The notes under the pieces: model-generated
What the model was told of the DNA's origin: nothing
The model's database searches: none
The model's input: only the letters and a program-made list of their open reading frames with translations
Shown here: positions 49,202-60,040 of the stretch, piece by piece
Position numbering within the stretch: position 1 is the stretch's first letter
Layout: the number at the start of each line of letters is the position of its first letter
Assembly: GCF_040183065.1 (NCBI RefSeq)
Contig: NC_091120.1
Span: 176,664,488-176,728,487 of the forward strand
Length of the DNA: 64,000 nucleotides
From: Periplaneta americana
Lineage: Eukaryota > Arthropoda > Insecta > Blattodea > Blattidae
Direction of reading: 5' to 3'
Program-made: the position numbers and the translations under genes

Positions 49202-49227
49202 ATGAATTCCTGCGTTTTCAACAATGG
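49202..49227 (+). other. v: vermilion exon 1 (coding part)
   Basis: ATG then eight full codons and two bases (MNSCVFNNG when joined). Donor GTAAGT follows at 49228. The other ATG at 49224 would leave the wrong phase for exon 2, so the upstream ATG is chosen. Confidence 0.8.
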
Positions 49228-58200: not shown

Positions 58201-60040
58201 GGACGCCTTCTTGAGAATATAATTGTGGCACTTCTACTTGCATTAATTGTTCGAGCCGACCGCCTGCAATCTACTTATCAACTACGTAACTACCTGACGA
58301 GTAACCAGGGGCGTAGCTCAGACGGTAGCGCGTTTGCCTGCTGTTCTGGAACTTCGCTCGAGAGTGGGTTCAGTTTCCCTTTAAGATGATTACTTGGTTT
58401 GTTTTTTTTCCGAGGTTTTACACAACTGTAAGTTTTACACAACTGTCAGATAATCCCATGGCGAGATCTCGGCCCCCCCCAATCTCATAAGAAACTATTT
58501 TACTGTCATAAATTGGCCACCGGCGTAGCTCAATTGACTAAGGCGCTTGTCTGCTGATCCGGAATTGTGCTCGGGCGTCGGTTCGATCTCCGCTTGGGCT
58601 AATTACCTACTTTAGTTTTTCCAAGGTTTTCCCCAATCGTAAGGCGAATGTCAGATAATCTGTGGCCTGTCCTCTGCCTCATCTCGCTTTCATCAATCCC
58701 ATCGACTCTAAATAACCTAGTAGTTGATACAGCGTCGTTAAATAAATAACCGAGTAGAAAAACTATCATAAATTCCATCGGTTATAAATAACCTAATCCC
58801 GTAGTTGATACAGCATTGTTAAATAACCAACTAAAAATTAAGAAGCCCTACTGATGTTACTGATCTGCGTTCGTCATTAATCATGGATCCTATGGGATTG
58901 GATGGATCCCGTTCCCGACCCTACACCTTAAAAAATTATTGGATATTATTGGGGTTCGAACCCGAAAGCTCTTCGTTTAAAGTCAGGCAAGCTAATTGCT
59001 TCAGCAAGTATGCGATGTGTGAAAGATCATTAACTTATTGATTTTGGTTGACTTGTAAATTTATACATACTGAATGAACCGTAAGTATTGTCATTAATTT
59101 CAGGAGGTTATTCTTTGAGATATTTCAAACAAAAAAGTTTAATACAATTTTGCTCGTTTTTGTTTTCTTTTCGAGATAAAAATTGTTTTATATAAAACAT
59201 TTTATAGCGTGTTTAGGGAAAGCCATTTATTTCATTCCTAATAGTCTATGCTCAGTCAATTTAAGAGAGCAGTGCATTATGGTAATAAATCATTATTGAA
59301 AGAATTTTAGCTATGTCCATTAAATGTATAGAAATTTGGTCCGAACAAATGTAACTTTTCTTTCTGCAAAGGAATTGTACAGTGTTATATTTGTTTGGAT
59401 CAAATTTCTGCACATTTAAAGGACAAAACTGAAATTCTTTCAATAATTTTACACTGCTGTCTTAAATTAACTGAACATATTGGGAATTAAATCAATGGCT
59501 TTCCCAAAAAACACTATGAAATGTTTCATATAAAACAATTTTGATCACGAAAAGGAAGCAAAAATGAGCAAAATTGTATTAAACTTTTTTGTTTGAAAAA
59601 TCTCAAAGAATAACCCCTTGAAACAAATGGCTTTACTTACCGTTCTCTCTGTGTATTAGTGCATATTCATGGTAGATAAATAATACAGGCCCTGTAAGTG
59701 GACGAGCTAAAAATTGGTCATATTATAAGAGTATAATGTTCATGCTTTGCTTGCTTTCAGCATATGAACTCTGGTTTAAGCAGATTCTATTTGAGCTAGA
59801 TTCTGTAAGAGCAAAATTCAACACTGAGGTGAGAACTACATATAATTTGGAGTTCTATACATAATAACCTAATAAGTGATAATGTCAGTAGACATTATAT
59901 AGGCCAAACCTTGAATGTTCATATATTTTAAGTATTGATTTGCTGTTTACATGCACATTTTGTTGCAGGATCTTGTTTTGGATGAATCTCAGTCACTGGA
60001 AATATTGAAACGCATGAATAGAATCGTCTTAATTTTGAAG
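49202..60040 (+). CDS. v: vermilion, tryptophan 2,3-dioxygenase, first four exons (partial)
   Basis: Heme enzyme that opens the indole ring of L-tryptophan to N-formylkynurenine, the first step of the kynurenine pathway and of ommochrome eye pigments. Coding join: 49202-49227, 55079-55239, 59761-59828, 59969-60040. All four introns begin GT, the three complete ones end AG, and phases match (2, 1, 0). The 109 residues begin [49 protein letters not shown], then [20 protein letters not shown]. The distal-pocket F57 and H61 correspond to human F72 and H76. The segment ends [15 protein letters not shown] just before the usual LLVDQ block. The full enzyme is about 380-400 residues, so about 270 are beyond position 64000. 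Introns 1, 2 and 4 are full of mobile DNA; intron 3 is only 140 bp. The identity is secure; the short first exon is supported by phase, donor and context. Confidence 0.95.
49760..49940. mobile_element. TA-flanked short MITE in vermilion intron 1
   Basis: AGCACAGGAACGCCATTTC at the left is perfectly inverted at the right, with TA at 49758-49759 and 49941-49942. It is 181 bp long. Confidence 0.82.
50020..50290. repeat. Diverged tandem duplication (~130-140 bp unit)
   Basis: Two units each contain TTGACTGATTC-CA-AAAGAAT followed by GTCTAGA-CAA-type sequence and GATGCTTC-type starts. It is in vermilion intron 1. Confidence 0.55.
50665..51183. mobile_element. pogo/Tigger-like MITE in vermilion intron 1
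   Basis: The ends CAGTAAAATCTTGTTAATCC and, inverted, CGGTGAATCCTCGTTAATCC both continue into GGACT. TA at 50663-50664 and 51184-51185 flanks it. The TIR style (AATCCTCGTTAATCCGGA) is that of pogo-type elements. It has no intact transposase. Confidence 0.82.
51796..52850. repeat. Tandem ~157-bp unit, just over two copies, split by a MITE
   Basis: Unit starts at about 51796, 51953 and 52832 share ACAGACTTC-CGTTCACCGTATGCT; each of the first two units continues with AAATTTTGGCTG-TGATAGAC and CATT-ACAGA-AGAGCA. The second unit is interrupted at 51976 by the MITE 51978-52711. Confidence 0.8.
51978..52711. mobile_element. TA-flanked MITE with ~140-bp inverted ends
   Basis: The ends are TACAGGGTGTTTTCGGGC and GCCCGGAAACACCCTGTA; the arms continue through ACAAACTTTCA, GATAAGGAACCCTGGTCCGG and AACTTTCGACTCAGTCATTT-type matches. 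TA at 51976-51977 and 52712-52713. The interior has no transposase. Confidence 0.88.
53046..53279 (+). CDS. Unrecognised 77-residue open frame in vermilion intron 1
   Basis: It begins [20 protein letters not shown] and ends [20 protein letters not shown]. Codon use is balanced and the C-terminus looks like a charged helix, so it may be a real peptide, a processed pseudogene or part of a transposon. I see no signal peptide or membrane segment, no splice context and no family match from memory. It could equally be chance. Confidence 0.3.
   Translation: MIVQSYRARSVSSNKVFGSMHLLPFRRVVAVPLKAFPRTDKPVVMKSQPTYHVPIDDTEEKWRYLFEEYKENAQEII
53368..54268. mobile_element. Unclassified ~0.9-1 kb repeat, copy 2
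   Basis: Inverted relative of 29948-30936. It includes a 52-residue plus frame (53948-54106) and a 61-residue plus frame (53675-53860). Confidence 0.7.
53948..54106 (+). CDS. Small open frame of the unclassified repeat
   Basis: [20 protein letters not shown] through [12 protein letters not shown], an acidic 52-residue frame. The end ETVGD(T/N)D-stop is kept in the other copy near 30105-30122, which hints at former coding function of the repeat. No family recognised. Confidence 0.35.
   Translation: MDNCHEGVSVSLDTMDMELQDEGIDVEVGFRTLFSTVDSCSSIYVETVGDTD
54678..54893 (-). mobile_element. tRNA-derived SINE, copy 3, in vermilion intron 1
   Basis: Same family as 17586-17822. The perfect 13-bp duplication AATGGAAATTAAT lies at 54665-54677 and 54894-54906. 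On the minus strand box B is GGTTCGATCCCGG. It ends 185 bp before exon 2. Confidence 0.94.
55079..55239 (+). other. v: vermilion exon 2
   Basis: Acceptor TTGTCTTGACAG and donor G/GTAAGTAAC. It encodes [10 protein letters not shown] through [13 protein letters not shown] and splits the Ala codon of THQA with exon 3. Confidence 0.96.
55382..56299. mobile_element. hAT-derived element in vermilion intron 2
   Basis: The ends are TAGAGCCCGGATGTTA and TAACATCCGGGCTCTA, perfectly inverted (16 bp). The flanks CTTATTTT and CTTATTAT match at 7 of 8 bases, as expected of an old hAT duplication. AAAATAGGCA phrases repeat near both ends. A 64-residue frame (55577-55771) with [20 protein letters not shown] may be a transposase-related remnant. 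Confidence 0.82.
56896..56931. repeat. (CA)n microsatellite
   Basis: About 15 CA units with CG-rich ends. Confidence 0.9.
57003..57890 (-). mobile_element. Jockey-like LINE fragment in vermilion intron 2
   Basis: On the minus strand, in shifted frames: AYDSVFTWD (first catalytic Asp block, about 57860), [20 protein letters not shown] and [13 protein letters not shown] (YADD) in frame 57753-57445, ALRIIHGS and [15 protein letters not shown] in frame 57339-57139. The C-terminal tail runs to about 57003. The endonuclease part is missing. [11 protein letters not shown] is typical of jockey-clade elements. Several frameshifts show it is dead. Confidence 0.85.
58305..58500 (+). mobile_element. tRNA-derived SINE
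   Basis: Head GGGGCGTAGCTCAGACGGTA (box A) and GTGGGTTCAGTTTCCC (box B), then TTTTCCGAGGTTTTACACAA repeated in part. It is diverged from the next SINE. Confidence 0.78.
58515..58761 (+). mobile_element. tRNA-derived SINE, full-length
   Basis: Head GGCGTAGCTCAATTGACTAA and TCGGTTCGATCTCCG, body TTTTTCCAAGGTTTTCCCCA, 3' end GTTGATACAGCGTCGTTAAA. The duplication ACTGTCATAAATT / ACTATCATAAATT flanks it (58502-58514, 58762-58774). Confidence 0.92.
58778..58838 (+). mobile_element. SINE 3' fragment
   Basis: CATCGGTTATAAATAACCTA and GTTGATACAGCATTGTTAAA repeat the 3' end of the adjoining SINE without a head. Confidence 0.75.
58865..59010 (-). mobile_element. tRNA-derived SINE head
   Basis: On the minus strand: GCTGAAGCAATTAGCTTGCC (box A region) and CGGGTTCGAACCCCAAT (box B). 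Confidence 0.65.
59098..59623. repeat. 526-bp near-complete palindrome in vermilion intron 2
   Basis: The left half folds on the right half almost end to end: TTTCAGGAGGTTATTCTTTG pairs with AAGAATAACCCCTTGAAA, GTTTAATACAATTTTGCTC with GAGCAAAATTGTATTAAAC, and AATCATTATTGAAAGAATTT with GAAATTCTTTCAATAATTTT near the centre. It ends 137 bp before exon 3. It is probably a fold-back MITE; no target duplication is clear. Confidence 0.88.
59761..59828 (+). other. v: vermilion exon 3
   Basis: Acceptor TTTGCTTGCTTTCAG, donor GTGAGA. It encodes [20 protein letters not shown] plus NTE, the start of the heme-pocket helix region. Confidence 0.96.
59969..60040 (+). other. v: vermilion exon 4
   Basis: Acceptor CATTTTGTTGCAG, donor GTAAAA. 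It encodes 24 residues, [20 protein letters not shown] plus LILK, in phase 0 at both ends. Confidence 0.95.

Follow-up and report, generated by a model that had tools for sequence, protein, structure and literature searches.

Tryptophan 2,3-dioxygenase, a heme dioxygenase, cleaves the indole ring of tryptophan and thereby forms N-formylkynurenine. This reaction starts the kynurenine pathway, which feeds the ommochrome eye pigments in insects. The corresponding gene, vermilion, is known to differ widely in length between insects. According to the house cricket genome study (PMC10136058), it covers about 2 kb in Tribolium and about 90 kb in the cricket, with similar exon sizes. For the cricket, Acheta domesticus, the same study describes eight exons including the first one, deduced from an incomplete mRNA, with an exon 2 of about 150 bp, and reports that a knock-out of vermilion results in white eyes that later turn vermilion (PMC10136058). 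No paper with vermilion or tryptophan dioxygenase of Periplaneta in its title was found in the open-licence literature.

We report here on a stretch of 64,000 nucleotides of the American cockroach Periplaneta americana, hereafter called the window. It almost certainly contains the 5' portion of the tryptophan 2,3-dioxygenase gene (vermilion), which is ordinary and seems intact. The organization is like that described for the cricket gene, with small exons and much-enlarged introns, exon 2 being 161 nt long in the cockroach versus about 150 bp in Acheta domesticus (PMC10136058). Four exons are found in the cockroach window and at least 14.8 kb of the gene is visible, ending within intron 4, in agreement with the span of more than 14.8 kb proposed in the initial annotation; the cricket gene is given as about 90 kb, with eight exons identified (PMC10136058). 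In a large insect genome, introns rich in repeats can be expected to lengthen vermilion, and such a case has already been reported for the house cricket (PMC10136058).

Coding exons and gene identity

The start codon, four donor sites and three acceptor sites can be read directly from the DNA, and define exons of 26, 161, 68 and 72 nt. The resulting gene model is as follows (slashes mark exon borders; the repeat percentages are rough values from a hand-entered interval list, discussed below).

49202..49227, + strand: coding exon 1, residues 1-9, Gly9 split by the junction, end phase 2; donor TGG/GTAAGT
49228..55078, + strand: intron 1, 5851 nt, about 28.7% assigned to repeats or possible remnants of mobile elements
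55079..55239, + strand: coding exon 2, through residue 62 plus one base; tblastn E = 2.5e-28; acceptor TTGACAG/C, donor AAG/GTAAGT
55240..59760, + strand: intron 2, 4521 nt, about 35.0% assigned to repeats or possible remnants of mobile elements
59761..59828, + strand: coding exon 3, through residue 85 (AYELWFKQ...FNTE); tblastn E = 2.4e-9; acceptor CTTTCAG/C, donor GAG/GTGAGA
59829..59968, + strand: intron 3, 140 nt, 0% marked as repeat
59969..60040, + strand: coding exon 4, residues 86-109 (DLVLDES...VLILK); tblastn E = 1.7e-8; acceptor GTTGCAG/G, donor AAG/GTAAAA
60041..64000, + strand: intron 4, cut off by the end of the window, at least 3960 nt long; no additional exon found

Spliced together, the four exons form 327 nt, i.e. 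109 codons without a stop, with phases 2, 1 and 0 across the three junctions and phase 0 at the open end after exon 4. The four exons, their phases and the 109 residues obtained by joining them had all been proposed in the initial annotation. They proved exact: the 327-nt join is open, its borders are GT/AG, and 109/109 residues are those of the listed Periplaneta americana protein. The presence of introns within the coding sequence rules out a retrocopy.

The 109-residue product matches the Pfam family PF03301 (Trp_dioxygenase) with E = 1.4e-34 and 120.4 bits, above the curated cut-off of 34.9 and far from anything expected by chance. A protein search with the same residues yielded 2091 candidates, 2070 of them with E <= 0.001. 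Among the best 120 of these 2070 proteins, the top match, P0001, is the 408-aa tryptophan 2,3-dioxygenase listed for Periplaneta americana, which agrees at each of the 109 positions, and the second is a protein of Zootermopsis nevadensis (P0002), which is also 408 aa long. The Zootermopsis protein is 88% identical over the 109 residues and 89% over the full proteins, and differs by ordinary substitutions. The P0001 record adds 299 residues that are not encoded in the window. The full P0001 protein scores 530.4 bits against PF03301 and covers positions 3-346 of the 346 of the profile, i.e. to the profile end. The exact match to P0001 may in part be two predictions agreeing with each other, and is no proof of splicing by transcript. 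The identification as vermilion (tryptophan 2,3-dioxygenase), already proposed from the letters of the DNA, is thus borne out by the Pfam match and by the identity to the catalogued protein.

Solved structures point to the same family, as all 15 distinct sequences matched by the 109 residues are named tryptophan 2,3-dioxygenase. The first of them is 4hka (E = 2e-32), which we take to be from Drosophila, and which aligns with residues 23-378 of P0001 (E = 1.8e-171). A length difference of two residues separates 4hka and the Ischnura protein from the cockroach protein at the exon 3/4 junction (59828/59969), 4hka being two residues shorter, as though this splice site had moved during evolution. 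Against the NCBIfam model TIGR03036, a prokaryote-annotation model with a whole-protein curated cut-off of 390.7 bits, the only query was the 109-residue piece, which reached E = 9.8e-17 and 61.2 bits. A score below the cut-off is to be expected from a piece of quarter length, and is no argument against membership of the whole protein.

When P0001 was compared with the unspliced window by tblastn, the four top-scoring matches fell on the four exons, followed by one with E = 10. The three larger matches run past the splice sites by at most 5 nt. Exon 1, with its nine residues, gave E = 0.30, which is not significant when taken alone, and the residues directly after it vary between insects. Both observations would be compatible with a different true first exon, the 26-nt exon then being a misprediction common to the database model and the start lying elsewhere, e.g. 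at a Met of exon 2. However, the predicted exon 1 is backed by its identity to the Periplaneta record and by 8 of 9 residues shared with Zootermopsis; Cys4 is invariant in 8/8 aligned insect proteins, and the 26-nt exon is followed by a GTAAGT donor. In the cricket as well, a first exon is described apart from the exon 2 of about 150 bp (PMC10136058). We consider a start elsewhere very improbable and retain the 26-nt exon as coding exon 1.

The four exons had been presented as hidden. They are real, but the word overstates the case, since both NCBI and UniRef already list the protein. The gene is thus already catalogued (NCBI, UniRef); the observation is correct and the gene is ordinary. It illustrates that exons down to 26 nt are readable from raw sequence if the protein family is well conserved. 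From a practical point of view, a usable gene model is confirmed for a cockroach eye-colour marker.

Conserved histidines and enzyme function

Exon 2 encodes His61 (H61) together with a conserved 13-residue stretch. In the alignment with solved chains, H61 of P0001 lies in a 16-residue stretch, and it is invariant in 8/8 of the insect proteins aligned. A second histidine of P0001, H315, aligns with the histidine that binds the heme iron in the human protein, and the exon for H315 is beyond the window. H61 and H315 are 254 residues apart in P0001, and the aligned histidines are 252 apart in the human chain 4pw8 (gaps counted). We take these human residues to be H76 and H328, with which a spacing of 252 fits. 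Human H76 is presumably the distal-side histidine and H328 the one that binds the heme iron.

Since H61 is in exon 2 and H315 is outside, the visible part has the distal-side segment without the iron ligand. The heme-pocket segment that had been assigned to these exons is therefore present as far as the distal-side H61 is concerned, but the iron ligand H315 is encoded past the window. From its family, the full protein would be a heme dioxygenase converting tryptophan into N-formylkynurenine. This activity is predicted by analogy with the family members, and the sequence gives no hint of a different role.

Location of the remaining exons

The window ends inside intron 4, and the remaining exons probably lie beyond it. 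With full P0001 as query, tblastn gave no credible match for residues 110-408 in 60041-64000. Seven short motifs of the next protein stretch had 0 matches in the three + frames of this interval. The best 20-residue score there was 20, within the range of 12-25 obtained with 20 shuffled sequences, while a perfect match would score 100. A downstream exon encoding LLVDQ...ETMTPLDF, which the initial annotation had proposed to look for, is therefore absent from 60041-64000.

That no exon for residues 110 onward lies within the 3960 nt after exon 4 is also what a partial or decayed gene copy would give, in which exons 1-4 had been duplicated and the C-terminal exons were missing. Such a copy would hardly be expected to retain 109 codons without stop or frameshift, intact splice borders, and identity to a listed full-length protein over all 109 residues; decay was rejected for lack of any lesion across these residues. 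Moreover, each of introns 1 and 2 exceeds the 3960 nt that were searched, and the absence of exon 5 is therefore unsurprising. The chance that the locus is a partial copy appears minute to us, smaller still than that of a different first exon, and we continue to read it as the 5' part of an intact gene that extends past the window.

Introns and repeat content

About 38.6% of the visible part of intron 4, a (TTAGG)n array included, is assigned to repeats or possible remnants of mobile elements. This percentage and those given above for introns 1-3 derive from a hand-entered interval list based on evidence within the window alone. The list counts simple repeats, inverted-repeat spacers and the (TTAGG)n array, misses divergent or single-copy mobile elements, and includes 57142-57444 and 62714-63007, two intervals that are reverse-transcriptase-like by eye and have no Pfam match. 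The repeat percentage is thus rough: it is not a strict lower bound, and it does not measure transposons only.

Ten stop-free frames, eight from the introns and two from the upstream region, were compared with Pfam. Three of them matched (RVT_1, DDE_3 and DUF4817) and seven gave nothing. The DUF4817 match, in a frame of intron 1, reached 19.4 bits and is below the cut-off of 22.6. The other two correspond to the following remnants.

57448..57789, - strand: reverse-transcriptase remnant in intron 2, antisense; Pfam RVT_1, E = 1.2e-14
63249..63461, - strand: DDE transposase remnant in intron 4, antisense; Pfam DDE_3, E = 1.6e-7, 31.7 bits, cut-off 28.6

Introns 1, 2 and 4 had been described as filled with mobile DNA. 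The RVT_1 and DDE_3 fragments support the presence of such DNA, but only about 29-39% of these introns is marked, simple repeats counted. That the introns are filled with it is plausible, and it is marked for about a third only. Judging from the repeats seen, the gene would be long because its introns have gathered transposon remnants and other repeats.

Several intronic structures were noted besides these fragments. Intron 1 has a nested foldback at about 51790-52853, which holds the weak DUF4817 match. Within it, at 51976-52713, nested inverted repeats surround the DUF4817 frame, with arms of 73 nt (99% complementary) and 68 nt (90% complementary). Repeats that are found elsewhere in the window, near 30, 43 and 17.6 kb, also have copies in intron 1, and intron 4 has repeats in common with about 13, 17 and 42 kb. 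In intron 2, a 584-nt inverted repeat at 59069-59652 has 175-nt arms that are 86% complementary, with a second pair of 64 nt nested inside, and is like a foldback or MITE element.

The (TTAGG)n array of intron 4 is located at 60699-61030 and is 332 nt long, G-rich on the sense strand. It has a 20-nt higher-order unit and comprises 33 TTAGG words. TTAGG is the usual telomere repeat of insects.

Region upstream of the start codon

The vermilion promoter of Drosophila is described as TATA-less, with an initiator (Inr) and a downstream element (DPE); a literature search on this promoter found no paper. With the Inr and DPE motifs as generally defined, a candidate was found ahead of exon 1.

49109..49142, + strand: possible core promoter without a TATA box; initiator-like TCAGTC (49109-49114), DPE-like AGACG (49138-49142)

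The two motifs are at canonical spacing, and a transcript starting from the A+1 (49111) would begin 91 nt upstream of the ATG. This is the one match of the combined Inr+DPE pattern on the + strand of the 64 kb. On both strands together, 3 matches were observed versus 3.7 expected under a first-order Markov model, which is not above chance; therefore it is position alone that speaks for the candidate promoter. That a TATA-less Inr+DPE promoter of vermilion has been kept in the cockroach, and that the (TTAGG)n array of intron 4 is transcribed in the G-rich sense, is a joint proposal that we put forward as a doubtful one.

A TATAAA is present at 49185-49190, 12 nt upstream of the ATG of exon 1. 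It was rejected as a TATA box, since it lies too close to the ATG to serve a transcript containing that codon. Further upstream, an open frame of 209 aa on the - strand (48060-48686) ends about 0.5 kb before exon 1. It has no Pfam match, and by eye it resembles the C-terminal region of a protein from a non-LTR retroelement.

Other features of the window

No RNA gene was found in the window by ARAGORN, run with the bacterial code, and no Rfam match reached the gathering score. Two reverse-transcriptase frames are located on the - strand near the start of the window, one at 2544-4085 (RVT_1, E = 5.5e-35, 513 aa without stop) and the other at 6352-6936 (RVT_1, E = 3.2e-9). Finally, a 472-aa open frame at 28297-29715, also on the - strand, carries the insect cuticle-protein domain Chitin_bind_4 (E = 1e-11). 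This frame has an alanine-rich repeated middle and sits in a G+C-rich part of the window.
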